A stretch of 64,000 nucleotides of DNA from Plantibacter flavus (lineage in GTDB: Bacteria; Actinomycetota; Actinomycetes; Actinomycetales; Microbacteriaceae). The notes under the pieces were generated by a model. It saw only the letters and a list, made by a program, of their open reading frames with translations. It did not search any database and was not told the origin of the DNA. The stretch is from assembly GCF_002024505.1 (NCBI RefSeq), contig NZ_CP019402.1, positions 4,092,001 to 4,156,000 of the forward strand, given 5' to 3'. Both the position numbers and the translations under genes were made by a program. Shown here piece after piece: positions 3,522 through 35,461 of the stretch; the first letter of the stretch is position 1; every line of letters starts with the position of its first letter.

Positions 3522-4208
3522 GTGAACACCGACACCATGCCGACAGATCGTTCTCGCAGCGTCGGCTGGCCCGAACTCGCCGTCGCGGCGATCACCGCTG
3601 TCGTGCTGTACATCGGCGGCGGGCTTGGCCTCTACCTGCTCGAGCTCCCAGCCGCAGCATCGGGAGTCGCGCAGTTCGCACTCTCTGCCGCCGTCCCCGT
3701 GCTCGCGTTCGTCGCCGCGGTCCTCACTCGTCGGCGATCGCTGAGTGCATTCGGGTTCCGCCGGGTCGCCCCGAGGTGGTTGCTCCTCGCGGCGTTGCTG
3801 GGCCTCGTCGCGATGGGCCTCGCGTCGCTGCTGTCGATCTTCGTCCTCGATCCGCTCTTCCCTGACGACAACACGCAAGCGGACTACGACACCGCCGCGA
3901 CCGCAGGCATCGCATTCTTCCTCGGAACGCTCGCCATGGGCGGAGTCATCGAACCGTTCGGCGAGGAGCTCCTCTTCCGCGGTGTCCTCGCGAGCTTTCT
4001 GAAGCGTTGGGGGCCATGGGTGATGATCATCGGATCGACCCTGGTGTTCGCACTCGCCCACGGCATCAACGTCGTCTTCTTCTCAGCCGTCTTCATGTCG
4101 GTCGTGAGCACCTACCTCTATTGGCGGACCGGATCGATCTGGACGAGTGTGATCGTCCACATCACGTACAACTCCGCCGCCCTCATCGCCAAAGGCTTCG
4201 GACTGTAA
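3522..4208 (+). CDS. CPBP-family intramembrane metalloprotease
   Basis: 228 residues, polytopic (about six spans). CPBP motif 1 is seen as EELLFRG (about 148-154), motif 2 as FALAHG and motif 3 as HITYN, giving the Glu/His/Asn set of Rce1-like glutamic endopeptidases. GTG 3522 follows a strong AGGAGGG. Some family members give bacteriocin immunity or process peptides in the membrane; which applies here is unknown. Controlled by the MerR-type promoter at 3448. Confidence 0.85.
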   Translation: MNTDTMPTDRSRSVGWPELAVAAITAVVLYIGGGLGLYLLELPAAASGVAQFALSAAVPVLAFVAAVLTRRRSLSAFGFRRVAPRWLLLAALLGLVAMGLASLLSIFVLDPLFPDDNTQADYDTAATAGIAFFLGTLAMGGVIEPFGEELLFRGVLASFLKRWGPWVMIIGSTLVFALAHGINVVFFSAVFMSVVSTYLYWRTGSIWTSVIVHITYNSAALIAKGFGL

Positions 4209-4385
4209 AACGGAGACAAATAGGAAGGCACCATCGCGCGATTTCCCGCGGCGTGGAATACCAGAGCGTCCTGACCGGCGATACACGCCGAATCGGTCGC
4301 GGGCTCATGATCTCCCGCTCGCCTTCCGCTTCCTGGGAGGCGCAGAGAGAGCCGGTTGCCACTCCGAGTGAGCCAGAGGGCTACA

Positions 4386-4477
4386 TGTGAACGCGCACGC
4401 AAAGTGTCGCCGCGGGGCCAGTGAACGAGCGGGTTTCCAACGTAAAGTGTCGCCGCGGTTTCCAGCACAAAGTGTCG
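4386..4477 (+). repeat. left end: terminal repeat plus three AAAGTGTCG boxes
   Basis: Terminal TGTGAACGC, then AAAGTGTCG at 4401-4409, 4444-4452 and 4469-4477, all pointing into the element. The boxes sit in longer similar units: two are preceded by GTTTCCA and two are followed by CCGCGG. This matches the arrays of transposase-binding sites in Tn7-like ends. Confidence 0.8.
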
Positions 4478-4867
4478 CTCCGAACAGGCCCGCGTGATTC
4501 CGCGGATCTGAGGCCGCGATGGGGCCATCTGGTGGCGCTCCGCGGCGAGGTCCACGCGTGGAGAGATGAGACGCCGTTGAATGAATCATCCGCAAGTACC
4601 ACGCCGGCCTCTGCCGCGCAGCAACTCCGCTTTGCGTGAGCCCCCGTGCAATCTGCGTCGGGTCGAGGCCGACCGTAGCTCCGTCGTACTCGTGATGCCG
4701 ACCGAGATTCCGGGGCCGTAGAGCACCGCGGCATGTCCGAATGATTGGGCCATGGCCGTGAGCGTCGGATTCAGCTTCGACGTGAACAGTCCGTCGCATC
4801 GACGGCACGCGTTGATCATGCTCGGCACTTAGGGCGTGTCGTCGACGAGCTCGCCTAGGCTGACTTC
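4478..4867. other. stretch without a convincing gene
   Basis: A minus-strand frame from 4828 begins MPSMINACRRCDGLFTSKL and continues 80 codons without a family match. Its first 40 residues look protein-like but the rest is Arg/Ser-rich and runs into the end repeats. It may be the stub of a gene cut by the element end. Nothing else is supportable. Confidence 0.3.
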
Positions 4868-5233
4868 ATGGTGAAGCTCCTCAAGACCGCGAACCCCGAC
4901 GGCGGGCCCAGCATTCCTGTTGTCGTTGAAATCCGTTCTGGGTCGGTCGATGTGACCCACGTCGAGATCACTCGGGGGGAGAACGAGGGCAGCACGCGAG
5001 CATTCCACGCCGCGGTCGGCTTCGATACCAGCACCGCGTCGTTTCCGACAGGCGCATCTCGCACGTTCTACGTCGAGGTCCATGTCCTGACAGAGCACTG
5101 GGTGGCCACGATGCAGGATGCGATGACCGTGGAGAAGGAGCCGGACATCGCGAAGTCGTGGGACGACCTCGCCACGACATCGGGCGGCGACGGCGCGATT
5201 CACGCTGTCCTAGTGAAGACGTGGTTCGAATAA
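4868..5233 (+). CDS. hypothetical protein
   Basis: 121 residues, no Cys, no hydrophobic span, alternating beta-like segments (PVVVEIRSGSVDVTHVEITRG, RTFYVEVHVLTEHW). Probably a cytoplasmic beta-rich protein. ATG 4868 lacks a strong ribosome site. First gene inside the left end of the element, co-directional with the PIN gene 148 bases downstream. No family recognised. Confidence 0.55.
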   Translation: MVKLLKTANPDGGPSIPVVVEIRSGSVDVTHVEITRGENEGSTRAFHAAVGFDTSTASFPTGASRTFYVEVHVLTEHWVATMQDAMTVEKEPDIAKSWDDLATTSGGDGAIHAVLVKTWFE

Positions 5234-5381
5234 GAACAGGCCCGGCGCCGAAGCACCAAGCCTGTAGATAGCCTTATCTGAATATGACCGATCATCTCGG
5301 CCGTGACAGTCTGCGGCTTCCTCGTTCGGGGAGTCGTCATATTTGATCCGACCGCCTGTGGGCGGCTCTGAGGGGGGGAGC

Positions 5382-6395
5382 ATGCTGGTCATCGTCGACG
5401 CCAACATCATCGTCAACGACCCCCTACTTCGCCAGCGCAAGTGGCGAGTAGCGCAGGACGAGATTGCTTCACACCGGCTACGCCTTGTGCTACCGGAGGT
5501 TGCACTACTGGAGGCAATCGGCGGATATCGCCGTGAGCGCACCGAGAAGGCGCGGCAGGTCCGATCCATCATTCGCAAGTCGACACAGAGAGCGAAGGGC
5601 GCAGCGGAAGAACTGTTGAACGTCTACCGAGACGAAGCCAACGCATACGAGTCGATCTTGCGCGCGCGGCTTCGAGAAGTCGGCATTGAGGTCGTCGACC
5701 CATCCGAACACAGCCATCTCGAACTGACTGAACGAGCGGTGAATCGGACGCCGCCCTTCGACGATGACGGGGGCGGGTACCGGGACACGCTAATATGGCT
5801 CACCGCCCTCGAGCAGGTCGGCGAACCGCCCTTCTTCGACTTGATACTTCTATCCGATGACGGCGTGTTCACGAAGCAAAAGAGCATACTTGCCGAAGAG
5901 CTACATGCAGAAACGGGTGCTGAGCTCACGGTTCTGCGTTCGATCGGGAGTTTAGCTTTCCCAGGCGAGTATGAGAGCGGTGACTTCGATCTGTCCGATC
6001 TCGATCTGAGCACTCGGCAGATCATCGATCGGCTCACGCTCGACCTTGCGCACAAGGACATCACGCGATGGAGCCCGCCCGGAGTGGATTACGCCCAAGT
6101 GCAGATCGTCGGTGGCGTAGACCTTCGCTTCGACACGCTCGAAGTCAAGAAGAGATACGGCACGACGGTCTACGAGATCGGTGTAGACGCCATCGCAGAT
6201 GTGGACGCCGAGGTACTTGTGATCCATGACGAGCGCGGAGGCGAGACGGACTTCACGCAGATGTCAGCGCGATGGGATCTGCGTATGCGGTGGCGGGGCG
6301 AAGTCGAGTCGGAGACGAGCGGGCTTAGCCGGCAAAGCGAGCTGGAGGTACGGGGTCTGGACGAACGCCAAAGACCTTCCCCCGAGAGCAGCTGA
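5382..6395 (+). CDS. PIN-domain ribonuclease-like protein (DUF4935 type)
   Basis: 337 residues. The PIN acidic set is visible in the first 190: VIVDANIIVND (Asp6), PEVALLEAIGG (Glu), GGGYRDTLIWL (Asp) and LILLSDDGVF (Asp). These arrange as in Mg-dependent PIN RNases of the DUF4935 group. The remaining ~150 residues form an unrecognised beta-rich domain and a charged tail. ATG 5382 follows a G-rich AGGGGGGGAG. Convergent with the ATPase, with 18 bases between stops. PIN proteins in such islands are usually toxins or RNA-targeting effectors; no antitoxin is obvious next to it. Confidence 0.75.
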   Translation: MLVIVDANIIVNDPLLRQRKWRVAQDEIASHRLRLVLPEVALLEAIGGYRRERTEKARQVRSIIRKSTQRAKGAAEELLNVYRDEANAYESILRARLREVGIEVVDPSEHSHLELTERAVNRTPPFDDDGGGYRDTLIWLTALEQVGEPPFFDLILLSDDGVFTKQKSILAEELHAETGAELTVLRSIGSLAFPGEYESGDFDLSDLDLSTRQIIDRLTLDLAHKDITRWSPPGVDYAQVQIVGGVDLRFDTLEVKKRYGTTVYEIGVDAIADVDAEVLVIHDERGGETDFTQMSARWDLRMRWRGEVESETSGLSRQSELEVRGLDERQRPSPESS

Positions 6396-6413
6396 CGCCC
6401 CTTCTCCTGCTGA

Positions 6414-7607
6414 TCATTCATCATCCTCGTCGTCGACGTTCGGTTGTCGAAGGATGAACGCGTCCATGTTTGGCACCGTGAAGCTAACGTAGCCCCGTCG
6501 TTCCGCATAAATGATGCCCTTGCTGATGAGAGATTGTCGGGCCGGGCTGAGCGCCGATGATACGACTCCCAGGTACTCCGCCACGGCGGTGGTGCTCGCC
6601 GTATTTCCTCCGACTGCAACCATGGCGCGGAGGTAGTGTCGCTCTCCGGCAGTTGTGCGATCCCATCGTGCAGGGAAGAATCCCTGGTCGAGGTCGGCGT
6701 TCCCCTCGGCGATCCCGGCTGCGGCGATCTCGGCGTCAATTCGTTTATCGGGGGCCAGATCCCACACGGCCTTGCCGTAGGTTTGAAGGAAGAACGGATA
6801 GCCCTTCGCCTCTCCCACGATGAGGTCGACCGCTCTCTGATCGAAAATCGCGCCCAGATCGGTGGCAGGCTTTGCAACGGCCTCGACTGCAGCTTCGTGG
6901 CTAAGTGCCCCAATTTCGCGAATCACGAATCGCTCGGCGTACGAGCGAGCTTCGGCCAATGTTCGCCTCAATGTCGAGAGGCCAGCGCCGATCACGTAGA
7001 ACGGCCACTCGGATTGTGACGCCTTGTGTTGAACGGCCAGGAGCGCAGTCAGTAGGTCGCTGTCCAGGTCCTGCATCTCGTCGACGAATATGGCCAGCGC
7101 GCTGTTGTTCCGCGTCAGCGGGCCGGCGAGGTCCGCTACGAGTTCTTCAAGATCGATCTCTATCAGGCCGGAGTTCGCTCTGTTCTCTGCAGCCGGCGCA
7201 TCCAGTTTGAGCGTCATGCCGGCGACCGTTGCGGAGAACGATGCGACGGTCGCAACGGCTGTCCGCACATCGCTGGCCGCGTTCTTGAAACGAGAGGTCA
7301 TCTGCCGGCCAGCCATTGCCACACCGCGGCCGAGCGACTGCCTGGCGACCCGTGAGCCAGCCTCGCCAGGGCGAGCCTCCAACTGCACCGTCACCCATCC
7401 TGCTTTCTCAACGTTCTGCTGGAGCTGGTTCAAGAGCACGGTTTTCCCGACGCCCCGGAGCCCGTACAGAATCATGCCGCCATCGTTGCGCCGACGGCGG
7501 CTCTTAGCGACCATGAGGTCAACGAGATCGATCTCCGACTGGCGTCCAACCAGCTCGGGCGGACGCACGCCTGCGCCTGGTCGAAAGGGGTTCAGGACGG
7601 GCAACAT
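6414..7607 (-). CDS. AAA ATPase (STAND-like ATP-binding protein)
   Basis: 397 residues. N-terminal LVGRQSEID, Walker A GLRGVGKT (49-56), Walker B AIFVDEMQDL (about 172-181), a sensor GAGLSTL and a conserved FFLQTYG region, then a C-terminal winged-helix-like part (LGVVSSALSPARQSLISKGII) and an acidic tail. The order is that of single-gene archaeal/actinobacterial AAA ATPases. No nuclease domain is fused. Its promoter region (7608-7704) is AT-rich with three CTATA repeats. Possible roles are sensor or loader in a defence system; partner unclear. Confidence 0.8.
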   Translation of the reverse strand: MLPVLNPFRPGAGVRPPELVGRQSEIDLVDLMVAKSRRRRNDGGMILYGLRGVGKTVLLNQLQQNVEKAGWVTVQLEARPGEAGSRVARQSLGRGVAMAGRQMTSRFKNAASDVRTAVATVASFSATVAGMTLKLDAPAAENRANSGLIEIDLEELVADLAGPLTRNNSALAIFVDEMQDLDSDLLTALLAVQHKASQSEWPFYVIGAGLSTLRRTLAEARSYAERFVIREIGALSHEAAVEAVAKPATDLGAIFDQRAVDLIVGEAKGYPFFLQTYGKAVWDLAPDKRIDAEIAAAGIAEGNADLDQGFFPARWDRTTAGERHYLRAMVAVGGNTASTTAVAEYLGVVSSALSPARQSLISKGIIYAERRGYVSFTVPNMDAFILRQPNVDDEDDE

Positions 7608-7704
7608 GCCTGCAGTCTACCGCAATATAGCGCTCTATAACTAAAAAGCTATACAACCGCCAGCTCGTCGCGCCGGTGAGCCGGAGCTTGTAGCCTCATT
7701 GACA

Positions 7705-7743
7705 AGAGGGCCCGATCTCAGTTGAGTTGAGATCGGGCCCTCT
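7705..7743. terminator. strong hairpin terminator
   Basis: A perfect 16-bp stem: AGAGGGCCCGATCTCA (7705-7720) pairs with 7728-7743 around a 7-base loop. It lies just after the stop of the small membrane gene on the minus strand and before the ATPase gene, so it insulates the two. Confidence 0.8.
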
Positions 7744-7753
7744 TTCGAGAGAT

Positions 7754-8029
7754 CTACTTCTTGTTCTCGGTGATGCTGGTGTGCGGGTGACGCGCAGCCG
7801 CAGCGGGCGTGATGTAGTGCCCGGTGATGGCGCTACGGTGCTGCGTCTCGCTGGTGCGGTTCGCTCCGGACTCGGTGACGCTGGTGCGCGGGTGACGCGC
7901 CGCGGCTGCGGCGACGAGCAGAGGCAGCCATGGCGGGAAGCTCGTGACTGCTGCGACAACGGTGACGACGAACAACGCAACAGTCCCTGGGCCGAGTATC
8001 CATCCCACCCAGAGTCGGCGTGTCCGCAT
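7754..8029 (-). CDS. small membrane protein with an internal sequence duplication
   Basis: 91 residues: a hydrophobic block (about 5-45), then two related segments, AAAARHPRTSVTES and AAAARHPHTSITEN. The DNA repeats too: CTCGGTGA(t/c)GCTGGTG then CGGGTGACGCGC appears at about 7769 and 7875. The tail may be recently duplicated. Function unknown. Confidence 0.5.
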   Translation of the reverse strand: MRTRRLWVGWILGPGTVALFVVTVVAAVTSFPPWLPLLVAAAAARHPRTSVTESGANRTSETQHRSAITGHYITPAAAARHPHTSITENKK

Positions 8030-8168
8030 CCCTTCTTCGTACTCGGCCGGCCTTCAAATTGCCGATCGCCCTCTGAGCGTTCGGCCCTCAGCGCATGCGT
8101 CGAAGGACCAACGCGAGCGCTACACCGACGATCACAACCACAAAGACGACGACGGCCTATGGCCGCAG

Positions 8169-8300
8169 CGAGGCGTCTTCCGGTCGACGTCGACGAGCAC
8201 GGTCGAGGCCGAGGGCCGCGACTATCCGGCGGCGCGTGCCGCGCTCCGCGCCATGGTGCCCGCGGAACAGTTTGTGCTCTCCGTGCGCGTGCTCGACTAG
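8169..8300 (+). pseudogene. fragment of a small conserved ORF
   Basis: The last 30 codons of an open frame read VEAEGRDYPAARAALRAMV and end FVLSVRVLD, like the ends of small actinobacterial proteins with a compact alpha/beta ending. Upstream codons are low-complexity and no good start is present. Best read as the tail of a broken gene, though a chance frame is possible. It converges with the gene that stops at 8297. Confidence 0.3.
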
Positions 8301-8572
8301 TCGACGTCCAGGACGCCTGGCGCTCCTTGCGACTTGGCGTAGCTGTCCCACTCCTCAATCCGTGAGTCGAGCATCTTGCTCAGCTCATAGGCCGTCGAGG
8401 AATGGAGGTAGTGCCGCACGCCGTGGATAGTCACAACGATGCACTCGGCGTCATCGCTGCCTGTCAGCTCGACGCCAACGTGCCCGTCCGGCCAGTTCTG
8501 CGGCACTTTGGGTTCGTGCGTGGCCGTGATGACGCTGCCGCGCTCGCGCTTGATCCGGCTGGCCTTTCCCAT
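8297..8572 (-). CDS. hypothetical protein with MGKASR N-terminal motif (third gene of operon)
   Basis: 91 residues starting MGKASRIKRERG, the same opening motif as the first gene of this three-gene set (MGKASNRKRDRR). A beta-rich middle (CIVVTIHGVRHYLHSS) and an acidic helix follow. The start sits 4 bases after the previous stop, so it is co-translated. The motif resembles the basic N-terminus of SEC-C-type accessory proteins, but no Cys cluster is present. Function unknown. Confidence 0.65.
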   Translation of the reverse strand: MGKASRIKRERGSVITATHEPKVPQNWPDGHVGVELTGSDDAECIVVTIHGVRHYLHSSTAYELSKMLDSRIEEWDSYAKSQGAPGVLDVD

Positions 8573-8576
8573 GCGC

Positions 8577-8870
8577 TCAGCCCGCCTGTCCGCGAACGGG
8601 TGCTGCGTCGAGCTGATCCGCAATCTCGCGGAACGCGCGCGCAAGGATCTGGTGTTCGCTGGTGCCGCTGAGCTGAATGGTGAAATCCCGTTGCGATTCG
8701 GAGTCTCGCTCCTCTGTTCCGAGCCAGATCGACCCGCCTTGGACATTGAAGCGCACGGATGAGTCACCCGAGTTGCCGTCTAGCGGAGACGAATGCTCCA
8801 CCGTCGCGAGAAGGATCGCGAAATCGGTATAGGTGAACTGCTTGACGATAGGCAACTGAGAGTCATTCAT
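8577..8870 (-). CDS. hypothetical protein (second gene of operon)
   Basis: 97 residues, mixed alpha/beta, no Cys, no membrane span. ATG 8870 overlaps the upstream stop by 8 bases, indicating translational coupling to the transglutaminase-like gene. No family recognised. Confidence 0.6.
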   Translation of the reverse strand: MNDSQLPIVKQFTYTDFAILLATVEHSSPLDGNSGDSSVRFNVQGGSIWLGTEERDSESQRDFTIQLSGTSEHQILARAFREIADQLDAAPVRGQAG

Positions 8871-9450
8871 GCCCCGACACTAGTGGCTGCCGAGTCGACT
8901 GTTCCAAGCGTTCCCGAACGCGCTGCAGCGATTCGAGATAGGACGGTTTCGCCCATTTTTGATCTGCGGTCTTGACCGGGTGCAGAGGCCAGCGGCCTGT
9001 GAATCGTTTGGCTGCAGGAGATGTGCCACGCCCGACCCACGGCGTCTTGCGAATCCCGGGGAACTGGCCGATGGACGGGTCGACGGAGTAGACCGCTTCT
9101 GTCCCGATCCGATATTCCAGCCAGGTGTGCGTCGCGGTCTCTGGTCCAGAGTCGTTCGTGTCGACCAGGAACCATTGTCCGTCGCCGTCATTCAGGCCCC
9201 GATCGAGCAGCACCATCCCAACGGTGTACGAAGAGATGCCGCACGATCCGGCTGGATAGTTCTTGTACTGCGGGAGGTCATCGAGCCGATGCTCGGCGCG
9301 CAGCTGTTCGATCACGTCGAGGGTATCGAGCATGGCTTGACGGACCTGCTTGCCCCAATCCTCGGGTCGCCCGTCAGCCCACATCTCCGGCGCTTCCTCT
9401 TCGGCGCGTGCGAGACGTCTGTCACGCTTCCTGTTACTCGCCTTACCCAT
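8863..9450 (-). CDS. transglutaminase-like Cys-His-Asp protein (first gene of operon)
   Basis: 195 residues. After a basic start (MGKASNRKRDRR) the triad order of transglutaminase-like folds is seen: Cys70 in PAGSCGISS, His108 in THTWLEY and Asp124 in SVDPSIGQF. Spacing (38 and 16 residues) fits small bacterial members, which act as thiol proteases or amidases. No signal peptide, so cytoplasmic. ATG 9450 is preferred over GTG 9456. The fold call is from motif order only. Confidence 0.6.
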   Translation of the reverse strand: MGKASNRKRDRRLARAEEEAPEMWADGRPEDWGKQVRQAMLDTLDVIEQLRAEHRLDDLPQYKNYPAGSCGISSYTVGMVLLDRGLNDGDGQWFLVDTNDSGPETATHTWLEYRIGTEAVYSVDPSIGQFPGIRKTPWVGRGTSPAAKRFTGRWPLHPVKTADQKWAKPSYLESLQRVRERLEQSTRQPLVSGHE

Positions 9451-9502
9451 GACCACGTCCGTTCATCTAGGGGCCTTCGGATCGTCCGCAGGCTGCAGAA
9501 AC

Positions 9503-9524
9503 GGGGCGGCTCGGAAGCCGCCCC
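9503..9524 (-). terminator. hairpin terminator after the 9602-9877 gene
   Basis: GGGGCGGC (9503-9510) pairs with GCCGCCCC (9517-9524) around a 6-base loop. On the minus strand it is followed by GTTTC, consistent with a weak intrinsic terminator. Confidence 0.5.
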
Positions 9525-9526
9525 AC

Positions 9527-9604
9527 CTGTGGATAACTACCCGACTGAAATACGTAGATAACACTGGATTACGAAAGTCTGAGCGTTTCCTCTGTGGATA
9601 ACTA
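9527..9604. repeat. two perfect DnaA-box-like direct repeats
   Basis: CTGTGGATAACTA occurs at 9527-9539 and again at 9592-9604. Each contains TGTGGATAA, the exact reverse complement of the classical DnaA box TTATCCACA. A looser TAGATAACA lies between. They fill the 150-base gap between two minus-strand genes. Could be a replication-linked or regulatory site of the element. Confidence 0.5.
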
Positions 9605-9877
9605 GTCGGTCACCGTCGGCTTCAGATACTCGATCGATGAGAGCTTGAACAGCTGTTCCAGTGCCTGTGCAATCTGGTCCTCGGTCATCCCGTTCGGGCC
9701 GAGGTTGAACTTGAAGGACTGGCCACTTATGTCATGCAGCGTTGCTACGTAGCTTCCATCCTTGGTCGCCTGGCGCACCGTTGCGCGGATGATGTGAGCA
9801 GGATTGAACGCGGAGGTTAGACCTCCGTCGGTCGCACCGCCCGAGTCTCGGCTGATTACTACTACTGGATTCTGCAT
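9602..9877 (-). CDS. hypothetical protein
   Basis: 91 residues, no membrane span. Central beta-rich part (YVATLHDISGQSFKFNLG) and an amphipathic C-terminal helix. ATG 9877 follows AGGGGG at good distance. It lies 45 bases downstream of the Lsr2-like gene on the same strand and may be co-transcribed. No family recognised. Confidence 0.6.
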   Translation of the reverse strand: MQNPVVVISRDSGGATDGGLTSAFNPAHIIRATVRQATKDGSYVATLHDISGQSFKFNLGPNGMTEDQIAQALEQLFKLSSIEYLKPTVTD

Positions 9878-9922
9878 GTGTCCCCCTGGTTCTCGGTCCG
9901 ACCCCCGGACCGTTCTGACACC

Positions 9923-10138
9923 CTACCGCCGACGTCGACGCGGACGGGTCGGCACGATCCGTCGACCGGCCTCCGTGTACGGCTGCAGCGCCTCGCGCAA
10001 AGCTGCAGCATTGTCGTCGCTGAGGTCAATCTCGTAAGCGCGGCCGTCGACGCCGAACCGGATCGTCTCGCCAGATCCTCGCTCGAGTTCTGAACCGTCG
10101 AGGTCGTCGACGAGCGTGGTGATCGTCCGCTGTACCAT
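9923..10138 (-). CDS. truncated Lsr2: dimerisation domain without DNA-binding domain
   Basis: 71 residues. The opening MVQRTITTLVDDLDGSE, then ETIRFGVDGRAYEIDLS and the AAALREALQPYTEAGRR helix match the N-terminal oligomerisation domain of Lsr2, the actinobacterial xenogeneic silencer. Full-length Lsr2 is about 110 residues and ends in an AT-hook-like domain with an RGR motif. Here the protein stops after a short run of Arg residues. The stop is clean, with no remnant of the missing domain downstream. It could join host Lsr2 oligomers and weaken silencing of the element (inference). Divergent from the DUF262 gene, 44 bases apart. Confidence 0.85.
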   Translation of the reverse strand: MVQRTITTLVDDLDGSELERGSGETIRFGVDGRAYEIDLSDDNAAALREALQPYTEAGRRIVPTRPRRRRR

Positions 10139-10182
10139 ACCCAGATCTTGGCAGACTAATTTCGGTCGATAGGCTCAGGGCC

Positions 10183-11325
10183 ATGAGCGAAATCGATGCG
10201 CTGCCCCCGAACGACGAGCCCTCTCCCGTCACGATCAAGGACGGAGACGGAGAGGTCTTCGACATTGACTCTGCTGACGAAGTGATGTCAACCAGCTACG
10301 ACATTGCTTCGTATGGAGCGGACTACGACGTCGAGGGGCTCGTCCGCAGGATGGAGAAGGGCGACATCATCGTTCCCTCGTTCAGTCCGTCGACGCCGGG
10401 GCAAGATGTTGGTGCTTTTCAGCGGGGCTTCGTATGGCGGCAGACTCAGATGAGTCGCTTTGTCGAAAGCCTGCTACTGGGTCTTCCTGTGCCAGGCATC
10501 TTCCTCGTCCGTGATCGTGACAATCGGCTCTTAGTGCTCGACGGTCAGCAGCGGCTTCGCACGCTCCAAGCTTTCTACGCTGGGCGTCTGGGAGACCGGG
10601 TGTTCCGTCTCATCGGCGTGCAAGATCCGTTCAACGACGTGGCTTACGAGGATCTGCGTCCGGAGGATCGGCGGCGGCTGGACGACTCCATCATTCACGC
10701 GACCGTGCTGCGTGAGGAGACTTCTGACGGCTCTCAGAACGCCGTCTACTCGATCTACGAACGCCTGAACACGGGAGGGAGCCCCCTTCAACCTCAGGAG
10801 ATTCGAATCGCTCTATACGAGGGCGATTTTCTTCGCGGTTTGAGCCTCTTAAACGGGCATCCCGCTTGGCGCGAAGTTTACGGTCCACTCTCCCCTCGTT
10901 TCCGCGACCATGAACTGATTCTGCGCGTGCTGGCGCTCTACGACTGGGAGAACCGATACCGGCGACCGTTGAAGTCCTTCCTGAATGAGTATCTTGCAGC
11001 TCACCGCGACACAAGCCTGACGGCAGACAGCGGTATCGGTCAGTTGTTCTTGCAAGCAGTCGAGGTCGTCGAAGAGGCTCTGGGTAAGTCCGCGTTCCGC
11101 CCTGAGCGTGCGCTCAACGCAGCCTTCGTGGACTCGATTCTCGTGGGGATGATGCGTCGTCTAGACGCGTCATCCGTGACTCCCTCAACACCTCTGGTTC
11201 AGCAGTCATTCGTCACACTGACGACCAACCGTGCTTTCATCTCCTCCACTGTGGTTCGCACCTCGGATGAGGACAACGTTCACCAGCGACTCGGTCTTGC
11301 TACTGAAGCGTTCGCCGCAGTCTGA
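10183..11325 (+). CDS. DUF262 (GmrS-N / ParB-like) protein
   Basis: 380 residues. N-terminal DUF262 features: FQRGFVW (79-85) and LVLDGQQRLRTLQAF with DGQQR at 120-124, the ParB/Srx-fold nucleotide-binding signature used by GmrSD-type restriction and DndB/Brxb-like proteins. INTG-type motif NTGGSPLQPQEIR follows. No HNH (DUF1524) domain is fused; the C-terminal half is helical. It shares a TGATG junction with the HEPN gene downstream, so the two are made together. Confidence 0.85.
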   Translation: MSEIDALPPNDEPSPVTIKDGDGEVFDIDSADEVMSTSYDIASYGADYDVEGLVRRMEKGDIIVPSFSPSTPGQDVGAFQRGFVWRQTQMSRFVESLLLGLPVPGIFLVRDRDNRLLVLDGQQRLRTLQAFYAGRLGDRVFRLIGVQDPFNDVAYEDLRPEDRRRLDDSIIHATVLREETSDGSQNAVYSIYERLNTGGSPLQPQEIRIALYEGDFLRGLSLLNGHPAWREVYGPLSPRFRDHELILRVLALYDWENRYRRPLKSFLNEYLAAHRDTSLTADSGIGQLFLQAVEVVEEALGKSAFRPERALNAAFVDSILVGMMRRLDASSVTPSTPLVQQSFVTLTTNRAFISSTVVRTSDEDNVHQRLGLATEAFAAV

Positions 11326-11804
11326 TGCCACAGCTGTATGGCGCTGACGAGGTCGCACGGCTGCAGAACAAGCTCGCTGCCGTTTTTTCACTGGTCGATG
11401 GCGCGGGCCTTGAAGCGGAAGTGTTAGCTCACTACTCGCGCTATCTGGCAGTCCAGCTCGCTGGATTTTCCGAAGAGTCATTGAAGCTCCTAGTCTCAGC
11501 ACACGCCAGGAAGCGTTCAACGGTCCAGATCCATCGATTCGTTGAAGGGAGAATTCGACTGCTGTGGGGAATCAATGCGACCAAGCTCAAAGACACCCTC
11601 GATTCGTTCGACACGAGCTGGTGGCATGAGCTGCAGCAGACTCACAGCCAAGAAGTCGAGGCTCTGAACAGTGTGGGTAAGTTGCGTGACAGCATCACCC
11701 ACGGTGGCAACTCTGGGGTGTCGATGCCAATCGTGAAGCAGTATCGAGACGATGTCTTCCGCCTTTTCCGAAAGCTCAGCCTCCTATTAGATCCGCCGAG
11801 CTAG
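11325..11804 (+). CDS. HEPN-domain protein (MAE_28990 / RiboL-PSP type)
   Basis: 159 residues, all helical. The HEPN RNase motif R-x4-H is seen at Arg121-His126 (KLRDSITHGG), in the usual place near the C-terminus. The ATG overlaps the last base of the DUF262 stop. DUF262 plus a small HEPN protein is a recurrent pair in defence islands; the HEPN part is the likely RNA-cutting effector and DUF262 the sensor or regulator (inference). Confidence 0.75.
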   Translation: MPQLYGADEVARLQNKLAAVFSLVDGAGLEAEVLAHYSRYLAVQLAGFSEESLKLLVSAHARKRSTVQIHRFVEGRIRLLWGINATKLKDTLDSFDTSWWHELQQTHSQEVEALNSVGKLRDSITHGGNSGVSMPIVKQYRDDVFRLFRKLSLLLDPPS

Positions 11805-12060
11805 TTTTCTTCGCCGCAAACCGTCCAGCGCAGCGCTATCAACCAGGAGCTTGGTCGTGGGACACCTCGGTGGTCGGTGACGTTCACATCGGCGCCGTTC
11901 CCCTGCGACCTCGCCTCCTCTTGTGGAGTCTGCATAACGGTTCGATGAGACGTGCTACCGTGATCGCCCACCGTAGGGGTGGATTTCTGCAGTATGCCTA
12001 TAGGAGGCATCTTGAAGAAGCTCAGTAGGGACTGCTGCACGAGTAGGTGACAGTGGTTTT
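11805..12060. other. non-coding stretch after the HEPN gene
   Basis: No supported gene. Short frames on both strands are low quality. It leads into the transposase remnant repeat at 12061. Confidence 0.3.
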
Positions 12061-12173
12061 GTCACGCAGCCAGTGCGGCTGGCGTGTTCATGATGACCTC
12101 GAATTCGATGGGGCCATGTCACGCAGCCAGTGCGGCTGGCGTGTTCATGATGACCTCGAATTCGATGGGGCCA
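12061..12173 (-). repeat. tandem 57-bp repeat: duplicated 3' end of an IS3-type transposase gene
   Basis: A 57-bp unit (12061-12117) is repeated at 12118-12173 with the copies identical over 56 bases. Read on the minus strand it encodes GPIEFEVIMNTPAALAA then a stop, which resembles the C-terminal end of IS3-family OrfB transposases. The rest of the transposase is absent. This is a scar of another insertion inside the element. Confidence 0.55.
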
Positions 12174-12174
12174 C

Positions 12175-12291
12175 ATGGCCAGGATGGCGCTCGAGAACGG
12201 GCACTCATTGGAGGCGATCGCCGATGCAGTCCAACGGCCGACGGTGACCGTGCAGGAATGGTTGGTGGAACCGGATGAGGAGTCGCCGTGA
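12175..12291 (+). pseudogene. helix-turn-helix fragment
   Basis: A 38-codon frame starting ATG 12175 reads ALENGHSLEAIADAVQRP then TVTVQEWL, a plausible helix-turn-helix. It is too short to be a whole regulator and starts inside the edge of the IS remnant. Probably a leftover of a transposase OrfA or a regulator. Confidence 0.3.
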
Positions 12292-12487
12292 CGCCCCGAC
12301 TTCTCGGGTTCTTGCGGGGGTGCGCCTACTCGGGCTGGGCGCTCCGGTCTCGCGCCGAAGCGTGTAGGGCGATTCACGGCACACTTGAGCGCGATCACCA
12401 TGTCGAAACACGCACGCTCTCGCACTGTGGCATCGCAGTAGACATCGAAGGTATGTGACACAGTGTGACCACTGCCCGACAAAGTAA

Positions 12488-12521
12488 AGACGGGAGCGGC
12501 CCCGAGGGGCGACTCCCGTCT
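12488..12521. terminator. hairpin upstream of the 538-residue HEPN gene
   Basis: AGACGGGAG (12488-12496) pairs with CTCCCGTCT (12513-12521), with a GC-rich inner part. It ends 46 bases before GTG 12568. It could end upstream transcription; no T-run follows. The region 12292-12487 shows no gene. Confidence 0.45.
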
Positions 12522-12567
12522 GTCAGAATAACGAGCTCGCGCTCTACCGCAAGGATACACACTCAAC

Positions 12568-14184
12568 GTGGAAAATCAATCGACAACTGGTGAACTTGTG
12601 CTGGCCCGCATGAGGGAGCTGGCTGACAGCCGCACCGCTTGGCATCGCGGTCTCTGGCAGCCCGGAACGCTCGTGCTTCTCGATGAAGTCATCGAGGCGG
12701 TTCTGGCTACATGGGACGGTTCGCTTACCTCTGACGAGGCGATGAAGGACATCATCAACACCACGATGACGCAGGTGCTCCGCGACCCGGGCGTCGGCGA
12801 CCAGACCGTCCGAGAGGCTCTGCACGAGCTACTCCGGCAGCTACGACCGTCCGGCAACGCCAAGTCGAAGCCAACTCCCGATCTCCAGCAGCTTCTGGAC
12901 CGAACCGTCGCCCTCGCTGCGCGAAGCCGAACCGGGTACGTCCTGAGGTGGATCGAACACGTCGAGTCAGTCGGTATCGCACCAGAGCAGGTCGAGCTGG
13001 CGTCACGCCTTCTGGTCGCGCACCTCTTGGACGAGGGATTCCACCGGAATCACGTCCACGGTTGGTTGGTGGCCCAAGGGCGGAAGGTCGAGCTGGCCGC
13101 TGTGCTGCGACGGGGTAGAGAGATGCTGGTCCAGTCGCGACGTACCTTTACCTTCTGTGTGGGCGTCGTCCGAGCCCCACTCGAGGTGAGAGAGGCGCTC
13201 AAGGAACACTGGCTGGACTCCGACACTTACACCAAGCGCTTTCGAGCAGCGAACAACCCAAAGCGCCGGCCCGTGCCACGCGCCGGCGCTGGCGCCATCG
13301 AGTGGAGCGCCGAAGCTCGCGACCCTCACGCCGCGATGTATGAGCTGCTCGAGTGGCAGCAGAAACTGGTGGCGAGGGTCCAACTGGGATACGGCCAGGG
13401 AGACAAGATCGAGTTCGAGGCCGACGTGATCGACGCAACAGCCAACAAGATACGCACTCCTCTCGAGGATCGCCGCTCCATTCGTGTGCCCGCTATCCAG
13501 CGGAGCCGGCTGTTTGTCGGAGGGGCCGACAGTGGCCAACGCTTGGATGGAGCGATCGGGCTCCTCGCCTCCCATAGCGGCGAGATCCGCGGAGCATCCA
13601 TCGCCTCTGTTTGGGCTGCTGCTGAAGGCCTCCTCGGACGACCGGGCGGCAAGGGGACCGATGTCGCCGACAGGCTCTCTGACATCATTACGTGCAGTTT
13701 CCCCCGAGCAGAAGTCGGAGACCTGGCCCGCGCTTGGGCGGACCACGGATCTGGCGAGCTCTTTGACGCGCTTCAAGGACTCCCCAGTGCGGATCAAGCG
13801 CGTCTGATGGCTGAACATCTAGCTAACGCAGGTGACCCAGGATTCGAGTCAGCGGCGGATCGCGCGGCCGCCGCCCGCTATATTCAACTTGCCGCAGACC
13901 CGGTGGGCGTTCTCGAACGAGTTCGGAACTACTACAACAGTGTCTGCCGGCGCCTGTACTACCACCGCAATTTCATCATGCACGCAGCAAAATTTGACTC
14001 CGTCACACTCGGCGTCAGCGTGAGAACCGCCCCGGTGCTCGTGGCTGCAGCACTCGACCGAGTGGTAAACGCCGAGCAGGGCAAGAACCCTGTGTCCCCT
14101 CTTGCGCTCGCGGCTCGAGCACAGAACGAGCTCAGCCTGGTCGGCACCACCGGCGCGCGACCCCTCCACCTGCTCCTCGACTGA
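12568..14184 (+). CDS. large protein with C-terminal HEPN motif
   Basis: 538 residues, mostly helical, no nucleotide-binding loop or membrane span. Near the C-terminus RLYYHRNFIMHAAKF carries an R-x4-H motif (Arg467-His472) preceded by Tyr residues, as in HEPN RNases such as the ApeA-like group. The N-terminal 450 residues match no family I recognise and would be the sensing part if this is an abortive-infection-type protein (inference). GTG 12568 has AAGGA 12 bases upstream. It stands alone, last gene of the element. Confidence 0.7.
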   Translation: MENQSTTGELVLARMRELADSRTAWHRGLWQPGTLVLLDEVIEAVLATWDGSLTSDEAMKDIINTTMTQVLRDPGVGDQTVREALHELLRQLRPSGNAKSKPTPDLQQLLDRTVALAARSRTGYVLRWIEHVESVGIAPEQVELASRLLVAHLLDEGFHRNHVHGWLVAQGRKVELAAVLRRGREMLVQSRRTFTFCVGVVRAPLEVREALKEHWLDSDTYTKRFRAANNPKRRPVPRAGAGAIEWSAEARDPHAAMYELLEWQQKLVARVQLGYGQGDKIEFEADVIDATANKIRTPLEDRRSIRVPAIQRSRLFVGGADSGQRLDGAIGLLASHSGEIRGASIASVWAAAEGLLGRPGGKGTDVADRLSDIITCSFPRAEVGDLARAWADHGSGELFDALQGLPSADQARLMAEHLANAGDPGFESAADRAAAARYIQLAADPVGVLERVRNYYNSVCRRLYYHRNFIMHAAKFDSVTLGVSVRTAPVLVAAALDRVVNAEQGKNPVSPLALAARAQNELSLVGTTGARPLHLLLD

Positions 14185-14393
14185 GCAGCCGGTTCAGCAT
14201 GGGCCACAGGCCACTTCACCTGTCACCCCGGGCTCACAACCGCCCGAGCATCGTCAAGTGATTCGACTCTTGACCAGTCCTCGTCAGCAAACGACAGCAC
14301 CAGTTCTCACGCAGGAGTGAAGCCTGAATGTCGATGTGATGCCCTGAGCCAGAGCGTCACATTCGGCCTGGACAGTCGGTCGGATCAAAGAAA
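14185..14393. other. spacer before the right end
   Basis: No gene or clear signal between the HEPN gene and the right-end repeats. Confidence 0.4.
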
Positions 14394-14438
14394 CGACACT
14401 TTACGCTGGCCAACGACACATTGTGATGGGCGTTCACA
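14394..14438 (-). repeat. right end: terminal repeat plus two boxes
   Basis: Read inward from the right: TGTGAACGC (14438-14430), then AATGTGTCG (complement of 14414-14422) and AAAGTGTCG (complement of 14394-14402). Two boxes here against three on the left, an asymmetry like that of Tn7 ends. Confidence 0.8.
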
Positions 14439-15818
14439 CTACATCCCCGGCGCCATGTCCGCGAAGCGGCTGAAGTGCCCGTGGAAACCGACGGTGATCG
14501 TGCGCGTCGGTCCGTTCCGGTGCTTGGCGATGATCAGGTCGGCCTCGCCGGCTCGCGGGCTGTCCTTCTCGTACGCGGACTCGCGGTGCAGGAGGACCAC
14601 CATGTCGGCGTCCTGCTCGATCGAGCCCGACTCACGGAGGTCGGAAAGCGCCGGCATCTTGTCGGCCCGCTGCTCAGCACCACGGTTCAGCTGCGACAGC
14701 GCGATGACGGGGACCTGGAGCTCCTTCGCCATGAGCTTCAGCGCACGGGAGAACTCCGAGACCTCCTGCTGACGGCTCTCGACACGCTTACCGGACGTCA
14801 GCAGCTGCAGGTAGTCGATGACGACCATCTTCAGGCCCACACGCTGCTTGAGTCGACGGCACTTCGCACGGATCTCGACGAGCGTCATGTTCGGGCTGTC
14901 GTCGATGTAGAGCGGAGCGTCGTTGATGCGTCCGCGCACCTGCGCGATTTTCGTCCAGTCCTGCGAGTCGACGGTTCCCTTACGCATGAGCTGCAGCGGC
15001 ACGGACGCCTCAGCACTCATGAGACGCATTGCGATCTCACTGCGCCCCATCTCGAGCGAGAAGAAGATCGACGGCTGGTTGTAGTGGACCGAGGCGGCAC
15101 GGGCGAAGTCGAGCGCGAGCGTGGACTTACCGATAGCGGGTCGGGCGGCGACGATGATGAGCTGACCCGGGTGCAGCCCGTTCGTCAGTTCGTCGAGCTC
15201 GCGGAAGCCCGTCGGCACGCCGGTCATGGAACCGTCGGTGTGCTTGGCGGCCTCGATCTCGTCGATCGCCGCACTCACCGCGTCGGTCAGCGGGACATAG
15301 TCCTCGACCTCCTGGTTGCCCGAGACGGCGTAGATCTCGGCCTGAGCGGAGTTGACGAGCTCGACGGCCTCACCCTCGGCGGCGTACCCCATCTGCACGA
15401 TGCGGGTGCCGGCCTCGACGAGACGACGCAGCAGTGCGCGCTCCGCGACGATGCGGGCGTAGTAGCCGGCGTTCGCCGCGGTCGGCACGAGACTCGTCAG
15501 CGTGTGGAGGTAGTCCGCGCCACCGGCACGGGACAGCTCACCCGTCTTGACGAGCTCGTCGGTCACGGTGATGACGTCGGTGGGCTCACCGTGCGAGTAC
15601 AGCGTCAGCAGGGCGTCGTAGATGACCTCGTGCTTGGGGATGTAGAAGTCCACACCACGGAGCGTCTCGACCACATCGGCGACCGCGTCCTTCGACAGCA
15701 GCATGCCGCCGAGTGCACTCTGCTCGGCGAGGAGGTCGTGCGGAGGGACCCGCTCGTTGCCGCGCGGCTCGTCGTACGAACCGCCACCTTCGGAGCGGTT
15801 GAGGTGAGCGATCGACAA
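14439..15818 (-). CDS. dnaB: replicative DNA helicase DnaB
   Basis: 459 residues. The N-terminal DnaG-interacting domain (PPHDLLAEQSALGGMLL) is followed by the RecA-like ATPase: Walker A AARPAIGKST, FFSLEMG, Walker B LKMVVIDYLQLL, and the arginine-finger/LSQLNRG region. TTG 15818 (LSIAHLNRSEGG) has AAGGGA upstream and fits the family's usual N-terminus. It unwinds the fork as a hexamer. The stop codon is TAG at 14441-14439 and is part of the element's CTACA duplication, so the insertion leaves the gene intact but removes its native 3' flank. Confidence 0.95.
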   Translation of the reverse strand: MSIAHLNRSEGGGSYDEPRGNERVPPHDLLAEQSALGGMLLSKDAVADVVETLRGVDFYIPKHEVIYDALLTLYSHGEPTDVITVTDELVKTGELSRAGGADYLHTLTSLVPTAANAGYYARIVAERALLRRLVEAGTRIVQMGYAAEGEAVELVNSAQAEIYAVSGNQEVEDYVPLTDAVSAAIDEIEAAKHTDGSMTGVPTGFRELDELTNGLHPGQLIIVAARPAIGKSTLALDFARAASVHYNQPSIFFSLEMGRSEIAMRLMSAEASVPLQLMRKGTVDSQDWTKIAQVRGRINDAPLYIDDSPNMTLVEIRAKCRRLKQRVGLKMVVIDYLQLLTSGKRVESRQQEVSEFSRALKLMAKELQVPVIALSQLNRGAEQRADKMPALSDLRESGSIEQDADMVVLLHRESAYEKDSPRAGEADLIIAKHRNGPTRTITVGFHGHFSRFADMAPGM

Positions 15819-16292
15819 GTGGACATCCCTTCTCGATGTTGACTCGGGTGGTGCGGGTGATGACGACTCAGGTGTAGCAGGAACGTGCGACACGCACGGG
15901 CCCTGCGGGGCGCCCACGGGCTACGGACGAGGGCTGCTCAGCCTGCTCGCCCGGCTGTTCCGAGACGCCGATGACTCACGATAGAGCCACTCGTCTCCAC
16001 AACCAACTCTGCCTGTGTATAACTCTGTGGAGAGATCGGGGGAAACGCCGCGTGTCGTGTGCACAAGCTGTGGGAAACCCTGTGGAGAGAGAAGTTTTTC
16101 CGCCAGTCAATACCGTCCTGACCAGGAGATTCTGATTCCACAGGCTGTGTGTGGAAAGTTCTTTCGATCCTGTGTCGAACGTTGAGGAGAACGGGGGTCA
16201 CCTGTGTACAACTTGCTTGACTCCGAGGGCGAAACGGGTGTAACACGCGGACGCCGAGACGACACTCCACCCCCGTTCTGGGCACAGAAAAA
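15819..16292. promoter_or_regulatory. dnaB upstream region with DnaA-box-like cluster
   Basis: About 470 bases without a gene. TGTGTATAA (16014), TGTGCACAA (16058) and TGTGTACAA (16203) each differ by one base from TGTGGATAA or TGTGGACAA. Several TGTGGAGAG/TGTGGGAAA relatives lie between them, all on the same strand. It may be a DnaA-responsive promoter or titration site. Confidence 0.45.
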
Positions 16293-34556: not shown

Positions 34557-35461
34557 GCGGCCGTCTCCGTCGTGGTCGTGGTGGTGGTCGTCGCCCGGCC
34601 CATGCCGGCGAGCGCGGTGCCGAGGTTGGCGGCCCGGTCGTCGACGACCGTGAACGCCGACGCCGGTCCCGACAGCAGGGTTGAGGGCCCGGGGCCGTGC
34701 CCGAAGAGGCGGCACTCCCCCGTGGAGATGACGCCGATGGTGATCCAACCGGGCCGGTAGCCGCGTCCGTAGGAGTGGTCCTGGTCCTCGAGCACGACGA
34801 TGTCGCCGATGCGGAGGGACTCAAGGCCGAGCGACAGGTCCTCGCTGAGGCCCGGGTAGGCGCCCATGAGGTCGGTGTTGGCGAACTCGGAGAGCATGCC
34901 GCCTCCTGCACCCGCCGCCTCGGCCGGGACGCGCATGGCGACGCCGACCTCGAGTGTGCCGTCGGCCGCCGTCGAGAACGGCAGGTGCGGCAGGAGCCGC
35001 GGGTCCAGGTTCTTCACCCGGACGTCCGGGTGGTCGAGGAGGCGAAGGCCCTGACCGCGGGCCTCGACGCTCACGGCGTCGCCGGTCGTCACCTGGCGGA
35101 GCGCCCCGTCGGCGAAGTCGGCGAGGACGTAGGCGTGCTGGCCGATGACGACACCCTCGGCTCCTGCCGCCGCCCCCGAGCGCACGGTCACGACGTTGCC
35201 GACGCAGCTGAGGAACTGCAGTGCGGCGTTCGCCTCGGCACCCGCGTGCCGGATCGACAGCCCGGGTTCGAGATGGTCGCTCGCGTGCCCCGTGGCGGCC
35301 TCTCCGACGTGCGCGCCCATCGTGACCCCGCCCATGCCGGGCAGGATGAAGGGGTGGCCGTCGGGATCCACCCGGTAGCCGTGACGGTCGGCCTGGGGCG
35401 GCCAGACCTCTCCGGTCAGGATCTGCGTGACCAGCCGGTCCTCGTTGGTCCTGAGACTCAT
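34553..35461 (-). CDS. DUF4438 protein, paralogue A
   Basis: 302 residues with the same block order as paralogue B: PFILPGMGGVTMGAHVGE, LSCVGNVVTVRSGAA-AGAEG, NLDPRLLPHLPF, WITIGVISTGECRLFGHGP. The two share these blocks but differ elsewhere, so they are old paralogues, maybe a heterodimer. A Thr-rich tail ends the protein. ATG overlaps the TldE stop by four bases. Confidence 0.88.
   Translation of the reverse strand: MSLRTNEDRLVTQILTGEVWPPQADRHGYRVDPDGHPFILPGMGGVTMGAHVGEAATGHASDHLEPGLSIRHAGAEANAALQFLSCVGNVVTVRSGAAAGAEGVVIGQHAYVLADFADGALRQVTTGDAVSVEARGQGLRLLDHPDVRVKNLDPRLLPHLPFSTAADGTLEVGVAMRVPAEAAGAGGGMLSEFANTDLMGAYPGLSEDLSLGLESLRIGDIVVLEDQDHSYGRGYRPGWITIGVISTGECRLFGHGPGPSTLLSGPASAFTVVDDRAANLGTALAGMGRATTTTTTTTETAA

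Follow-up and report, generated by a model that had tools for sequence, protein, structure and literature searches.

We analysed a window of 64,000 nucleotides of the Plantibacter flavus genome (contig NZ_CP019402.1) and found an element of 10.05 kb (positions 4386 to 14438) that is very probably a non-autonomous, cargo-only derivative of a Tn7-like transposon, which homes to the 3' end of dnaB and is mobilised in trans by TnsA, TnsB and TnsC together with TniQ supplied from outside. The element has the ends of autonomous elements, a 5-bp target-site duplication (TSD) and, in relatives, an uninterrupted counterpart of its site. TnsA, TnsB, TnsC and TniQ are encoded by elements of two sister species that have the same ends, attachment (att) site and orientation, which supports the proposal of an initial annotation, made from the sequence alone, that this carrier is non-autonomous and depends for its movement on a transposase from elsewhere; mobilisation in trans is what we infer from these sequence comparisons. 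The genome that contains the window is referred to here as G000 (one contig, 4,211,582 bases), and G224, G050, G266, G299, G120 and G175 denote other Plantibacter genomes.

Ends and insertion site

The boundaries of the element and its target gene, with the left end (LE), the right end (RE) and the terminal inverted repeats (TIRs), are as follows.

4381-4385: left TSD copy, CTACA (from the sequence, with a single CTACA at the uninterrupted G175 site)
4386-4509, plus strand: LE, with TIR TGTGAACGC (4386-4394) and three direct AAAGTGTCG-centred repeats (4401, 4444 and 4469)
14364-14438, minus strand: RE, with TIR GCGTTCACA (14430-14438) and two inward repeats (14394-14402, exact; 14414-14422, 8 of 9)
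14439-14443: right TSD copy, CTACA, overlapping the dnaB stop codon
14439-15917, minus strand: dnaB, replicative helicase, the target gene, with its 3' end kept intact (open reading frame [ORF]; homologous DNA in all seven genus genomes)

The TIRs are exact inverted repeats over 9 bp and CTACA lies on either side of the element, as the initial annotation had described. Its three left and two right inward repeats stood on the left, where AAAGTGTCG is exact at all three positions (plus strand), and in part on the right, where one copy is exact (14394, minus strand) and the second (AATGTGTCG at 14414, minus strand) matches AAAGTGTCG at 8 of 9 positions. Taken singly, a 9-mer with one mismatch is about as common in the window as chance predicts (10 matches versus 8.8 expected; 43 of 100 shuffles reach 10). 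The paired repeat array is unique to the element in the whole G000 genome, and a reversed-pattern control yielded none. Models of LE and RE (nhmmer) that were trained without the window element and without its near-identical copy in G050 (G050-E1) match 4386-4509 (E=1.4e-39) and 14438-14375 (E=1.6e-8), respectively, and models built from the two autonomous elements (G224 and G050-E2) alone recover both window ends (LE, E=3.5e-34; RE, E=1.7e-5). The end structure at 4386-14438 is real and confirmed.

With regard to the target, we take the ORF at 14439-15917 to be dnaB, encoding the replicative helicase, on the basis of the initial annotation rather than a family search. The TAG stop codon of dnaB lies, as its complement, within the right CTACA, and the reading frame is therefore undisrupted; since insertion duplicates the stop codon, dnaB stays whole. 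The 3' coding end of dnaB is well conserved in both filled and empty genomes, which is consistent with its recognition by TniQ/TnsD. An empty dnaB 3' site in relatives, for which the initial annotation had suggested a search, is present in two genomes. G175 reads AAGAGGG-CTACA-TCCCCGG, and G000 has AGAGGG-CTACA before the LE and CTACA-TCCCCGG after the RE; G120 reads TCGCC-CTACT-GCCCCGG, and G299 has TCGCC-CTACT before its LE, plus further alignable left flank. No LE or RE was detected in the 18-kb dnaB stretch of either G175 or G120 (nhmmer, E up to 1).

Related elements and their transposition genes

These ends are present, with dnaB-homologous DNA adjoining them, in five of the seven Plantibacter genomes. 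Among the family genomes drawn, G000 included, the double repeat occurs in 7 of 299 and the TIR-plus-repeat pattern in 6 of 398. Seven elements are bounded on both sides at dnaB, in five genomes:

G000 element: 10.05 kb, without tns genes
G266-E1: 12.9 kb, in tandem with E2, without tns genes; cargo of GH2 and GH3 glycoside hydrolases, LacI-type and NmrA proteins
G266-E2: 5.4 kb, in tandem with E1, without tns genes; cargo of an MFS transporter and an alpha-L-rhamnosidase
G224 element: 31.5 kb, encoding tnsA-tnsB-tnsC-tniQ
G050-E1: 8.2 kb, in tandem with E2, without tns genes; near-identical copy of the window element
G050-E2: 69 kb, in tandem with E1, encoding tnsA-tnsB-tnsC-tniQ
G299 element: about 13 kb, altered right terminus, without tns genes; cargo of GajA/GajB (4.3e-168 and 5.9e-129) and a type IIG restriction-modification enzyme (8.9e-299)

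The G299 element was included despite its altered right terminus; left out of the seven were the elements of G063, single REs of G040 and G285, a degraded LE of G050 and a 651-bp mini-element found away from dnaB. All seven elements lie at dnaB, or beside an element at dnaB, with the RE towards dnaB, and thus have a fixed att site and orientation; exceptions to the dnaB site, outside the seven, are the mini-element and the G285 RE. Five of the seven are cargo-only, with unlike cargo, and two (G224 and G050-E2) encode transposition genes. Other cargo between the same ends, which the initial annotation had proposed to look for, was thereby found, including the GajA/GajB and type IIG genes of G299 and the glycoside hydrolases of G266. 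The tandem order in G266 is CTACA-E1-CTACA-E2-CTACA-dnaB; such stacking beside dnaB points to successive arrivals, each inserted on the dnaB side of the element already there, and to weak target immunity where ends diverge from one another.

In both G224 and G050-E2, genes for TnsA, TnsB, TnsC and TniQ are adjacent, in the same order, inside the ends and near the dnaB-proximal RE; with the four genes as one module within their ends, these two are autonomous Tn7-like elements. Homologues from the two elements are 54-64% identical. In G224, TnsA has 302 amino acids (aa), TnsB 713 aa (form P0001), TnsC 376 aa and TniQ 766 aa as called. G224 TnsC matches TniB/AAA (E=2.5e-7) and G224 TnsB matches TnsB of ShCAST (E=1.9e-8), while its match to PF00665 (rve) is weak (E=0.0023); at least 29 of 30 sequences conserve residues D270, D369 and E405 of TnsB. 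G224 TnsB is identical to a protein of Plantibacter sp. VKM Ac-1784. TniQ was assigned from Pfam (PF06527, E=1.1e-12), its matches in the PDB being weak (best TniQ E=0.052). The candidate TnsA has an invariant H-T-P-D166 and K182 and a near-invariant D180 (V-D-V-K182) in 22 aligned sequences, and some of its relatives are named TnsA-like; sequence, gene order and the names of relatives point to this assignment.

The end arrays beside a transposase that the initial annotation had suggested looking for in the genome and its close relatives are thus found in the sister species (G224 and G050), and not in G000, where TnsB, TnsC and TniQ were not detected in the whole genome (no match among the candidates scored: 21 of 21 for TnsB, 16 of 16 for TniQ and 4 of 4 for TnsC). 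The searches for TnsB, TniQ and TnsC were each positive in two of the seven genus genomes, and negative in G000, G266, G299, G120 and G175. A tblastn comparison of TnsA-C and TniQ with the window gave nothing below E=0.2, the TnsA search being limited to the window and the fetched stretches. The window element is therefore not autonomous, since TnsB with TnsC and TniQ/TnsD was not detected in G000. PF00665 had no match in G000, G224 or G266, a model too weak for this TnsB, and the claims of absence therefore rest on the TnsB, TniQ and TnsC searches. Matches to rve in other genomes (28 in G285; one each in G120, G050-C5 and G063) were not tied to these ends.

Searches beyond the chromosomes of the genus found 140 plasmid records with TnsB, all below 60% identity and the 10 shown at 28.5-30.6%; no close plasmid-borne helper was seen among the plasmid matches shown. 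No relative of TnsB was found in viral contigs, and the LE had no match in plasmids. At five more distant TnsB loci (30-34% identity, L145-L149), no dnaB was found within the 16-18 kb fetched. Across genome contigs, TTTCCAGCGTAAAGTGTCG gave one clostridial match, which we estimate to be about the number expected by chance, and the end pattern in 17 viral contigs is likewise near chance by our estimate.

Beside the RE of both autonomous elements, a gene of 347 or 356 aa and a small gene, here called 'y', are conserved (G224, 34897-35940 and 36181-36432; G050, 79351-80421 and 80490-80873, in our concatenations); both are possibly accessory or regulatory. The helix-turn-helix (HTH)-like 'y' ORF is the sole gene seen in both kinds of element: it lies beside the RE in G224 and G050-E2, and is present in the mini-element; G000 and G299 have truncated copies, and neither G266 element was seen to have one. 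The mini-element, on another G050 contig and away from dnaB, has both ends, no tns gene, a 'y' ORF and ACCGC on either side, so that a minimal copy without tns genes seems to have transposed. A second 'y'-like ORF lies directly upstream (L021, about 8019-8318), and the mini-element may have landed beside an older element or a host homologue. Just outside the G224 LE are fragments of TniQ and of a neighbouring HTH-like gene (4487-5056 and 3835-4365 of the L023/L024 concatenation), left over from an earlier autonomous element at this dnaB site. A degraded third LE lies upstream of the G050 tandem pair (2149-2262 of the G050 concatenation, L020).

Outside the genus, G063 has two REs and one LE at dnaB, which we read in the order RE, GCCTA, LE, 1.8 kb, RE, GCCTA, and G040 has an RE whose terminus would fall about 7 bp past the dnaB stop codon. 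The RE of G285 (L029, near 776,916 of contig 1) has two direct repeats and one inverted repeat, with no dnaB close by within the fetched stretch. The fetched stretches yielded no LE for G040, for G285 or for the first of the G063 elements. The family may extend beyond the elements described here.

Proposed mobilisation in trans and alternative explanations

We propose that a helper element in the same cell would supply TnsA with TnsB, TnsC and a TniQ/TnsD-type selector. TnsB would bind the AAAGTGTCG repeats of both ends and, by analogy with Tn7, TniQ/TnsD would read the conserved last codons of dnaB; TnsC would then direct insertion at the stop codon with the RE towards dnaB, and the 5-bp duplication, which includes the stop, would leave DnaB unharmed. 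The presence of TnsA in the helpers predicts cut-and-paste movement. With its defence-type cargo (PIN and AAA, DUF262 and HEPN, and ApeA genes) and no transposition gene, the element could persist and spread as a satellite, carried between cells by some vehicle.

Comparison with the G050 copy bears on this spread. Three blocks of the window element align with G050-E1 at 99.2-99.8% identity, identity in the flanks of the two genomes is 94.0% on the left (1.66 kb aligned) and 96.3% on the right (5.1 kb), and the immediate left flanks differ; because the elements are so much closer than their flanks, and the left flanks are unlike, the form without tns genes has most likely itself passed between species. 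The G050 copy lacks a 2.4-kb module (window 9870-12279) that holds the DUF262 and HEPN genes; since there are a few shared bases at the G050 junction, loss in G050 seems likelier than gain in G000.

Several observations weigh against mobilisation in trans. No helper was found in G000 itself, leaving present mobility unproved, and the proposed TnsA is without a match in PDB sequence and profile searches. By eye, the window RE is the most divergent of the REs, with a leave-out E value of no better than 1.6e-8. The left flank of the window element matches the uninterrupted G175 site over a short stretch (AGAGGG and CTACA), the G299/G120 pair being better in this respect. The flanks of G050-E1 are unlike (CTACA on the left, CTTAC on the right), that is, no TSD is seen there and clean transposition alone does not explain this copy; recombination at dnaB between resident elements or ends could also move cargo. 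Finally, the RE terminus of G299 is altered, and the left terminus of the mini-element is TCT rather than TGT.

Some of these points would suit an alternative in which the element is a decayed relic, no longer mobile, of an autonomous Tn7-like element that lost its tns genes once inserted at dnaB, and has spread between species by homologous recombination at dnaB or between resident ends. Decay at this site is evident from the TniQ fragment outside the G224 LE, the window cargo includes a truncated copy of the 'y' gene found at the right end of autonomous elements (12175-12291), and the degraded LE upstream of G050-E1, whose flanks are unlike, could have served recombination. We nonetheless consider this account unlikely: five of the seven bounded elements lack tns genes and have unlike cargo, G000 and G050-E1 share the tns-less form at an identity well above that of their flanks and with different left-flank sequence, a tns-less element of 651 bp lies off-site with its own 5-bp duplication, and both TIRs and the duplication are intact in the window element. 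The two accounts partly overlap, as mobilisation in trans allows for an origin by loss of tns, and the likelihoods that we assign to them are not exclusive.

The family of the element is a further point on which accounts could differ. The initial annotation had named relatives of Tn7, Tn5053, Mu and IS21, of which Tn7 relatives are the match. TGT...ACA ends, end arrays and 5-bp duplications are common to several such groups, yet an IS21-, Mu- or Tn5053-type element is very improbable, given the TnsA, TnsB, TniB-like TnsC and long TniQ of the partner elements, which sit RE first at the 3' end of one gene; PF00665 also had no match in G000, although it detects this TnsB poorly and no search was made for IstB or MuB. 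We hold it for still more improbable that the element moves by an unrecognised recombinase of its own, such as its 538-aa protein. Of 18 plasmid records with a relative of this protein, 4 call it 'integrase', and a Microbacterium metagenome-assembled genome has a relative, 68% identical, under the name 'Integrase, catalytic region'; the protein matches Thr1ApeA (PDB 9hxl; phmmer E=1.8e-37, over residues 7-537), has an invariant HEPN-type RxxxxH motif, is shared with the G050-E1 copy and no other element (blastp of called genes), and no recombinase match was found in Pfam, NCBIfam or PHROGs. Chance repeats around an ordinary genomic island have a next to negligible likelihood: the single 9-mer with one mismatch is indeed at chance level, and the leave-out models, the reversed-pattern control and the recurrence of the ends at the dnaB stop in the genus refute this explanation.

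Tn7 is among the closest known systems. Tn7 also generates a 5-bp duplication and has TGT...ACA ends. The elements described here further resemble it in that they lie, always in a single orientation, where an essential gene ends (3'), in the location of tns near one end in the autonomous relatives and in their unequal left and right repeat arrays; they differ in that dnaB is the target, the stop codon itself is the point of insertion, tns genes are missing from the window element and tandem insertion is common. In part of one account, TnsD of Tn7 is described as binding the end of the glmS coding DNA, with insertion about 20-25 bp downstream (PMC2918618), and another, again in part, describes target immunity of Tn7 (PMC11406308). 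Passages on miniature inverted-repeat transposable elements (MITEs) and other non-autonomous elements describe ends that are kept while a relative supplies the transposase (PMC10969869). The window element would be alike in this respect and the 651-bp G050 mini-element comes close to a MITE; by contrast, the window element is 10 kb long, with several defence-type genes and a specific att site.

A broader and more tentative proposal, which we regard as somewhat short of evenly balanced, is that most dnaB-homing copies are cargo-only cassettes for defence or sugar use that have just their ends in common with the smaller number of copies that encode tns and act as helpers, are stacked in tandem at a single safe site and spread between species into cells without a helper. 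Were this so, island content could be exchanged where neither the island nor even the genome encodes a mobility gene, and would be invisible to surveys that begin from tnsB. Tn7-like islands get found by their tns genes. As parts of one survey describe (Benler et al. 2021, PMC8649781), one Tn7-like clade is dominated by transposons of Actinobacteria, none experimentally characterised, defence systems are among Tn7-like cargo, and the search takes a tnsB homologue as its starting point and covers up to 125 kb on either side; going by these passages, an element without tns genes in a genome without tns genes would therefore be missed. The term 'dnaB' does not occur in the main text of two Tn7-like surveys, of which this is one, and literature searched by title and start of abstract yielded no report of a dnaB attachment site or of a defence-carrying, tns-less Tn7-like element. 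If satellites without tns genes make up most islands of the family, Tn7-like transposition reaches further, and mobile phage-defence genes are in greater supply, than current estimates suggest. Trans-mobilisation of natural defence islands would become directly testable with this att site, which lies in an essential replication gene, and with the matched natural ends and two helper sets.

Cargo of the window element

The cargo probably functions in defence, as judged from family matches; its genes and candidate ORFs are listed below.

4868-5233, plus strand: 121-aa ORF without a family match (Pfam, PADLOC, NCBIfam, PHROGs)
5343-6395, plus strand: PIN_12-domain protein, putative RNase, 350 aa (Pfam PF16289, E=6.6e-19)
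6414-7607, minus strand: AAA_16-type ATPase, 397 aa (Pfam PF13191, E=1.4e-15)
8297-9877, minus strand: four small candidate ORFs without a family match (8297-8767, 8577-8870, 8863-9456 and 9602-9877), the first scanned as 8297-8572 with Pfam, PADLOC and NCBIfam
10183-11325, plus strand: DUF262/GmrSD N-terminal protein with a DGQQR motif (PF03235, E=5.5e-25; PADLOC NsnA, 6.4e-55, and PD-T4-2_A, 6e-45)
11325-11804, plus strand: HEPN protein, 159 aa, with an RDSITH motif, adjoining the DUF262 gene (PF18735, E=2.5e-6)
12175-12291, plus strand: truncated copy of the small HTH-like 'y' protein (tblastn E=5.6e-7; hmmsearch E=1.4e-18, with a model built from four copies that include this one)
12568-14184, plus strand: ApeA-family antiviral protein by similarity, 538 aa, with the HEPN-type motif R467-N-F-I-M-H472

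The initial annotation had described nuclease, HEPN and Lsr2-like cargo; PIN and HEPN matches agree with the first two, and no Lsr2 match was found for the 10 proteins scanned with Pfam, NCBIfam and PHROGs. The HEPN protein scores just below the PF18735 cut-off (28.0 versus 28.4 bits) and weakly matches the CARF-HEPN model of PADLOC (E=0.002). As for a CRISPR-associated transposon, no Cas family was found among the 10 window proteins in Pfam, and the cargo of the helpers was not searched systematically. The 538-aa protein has no match to any Pfam, PADLOC, NCBIfam or PHROGs model; its near full-length alignment with Thr1ApeA and the HEPN RxxxxH motif, of which R467, N468 and H472 are invariant across 16 aligned sequences, place it in the ApeA family as far as sequence can tell. 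An identity as 'integrase' was dropped in favour of ApeA on account of the 9hxl match. The 397-aa AAA protein was also considered as TnsC and rejected, as it has no TniB match in Pfam and its best blastp match to the helper TnsC (E=0.11) is not convincing.

By blastp of called genes, the cargo genes are common to the near-identical G050-E1 copy and to no other element. Among the 398 family genomes, the full-length PIN-AAA pair is present solely in G000 and G050; diverged relatives of PIN or AAA pieces (63-70% DNA identity) occur at L155 (G217), L156 (G250), L158 (G077) and L161 (G175, C9:287449), the last being away from dnaB of G175 (C9:75625). A 57-bp direct duplication at 12060-12173 resembles DNA beside rve genes of G285, and is perhaps a leftover related to an insertion sequence that cut off the 'y' gene.

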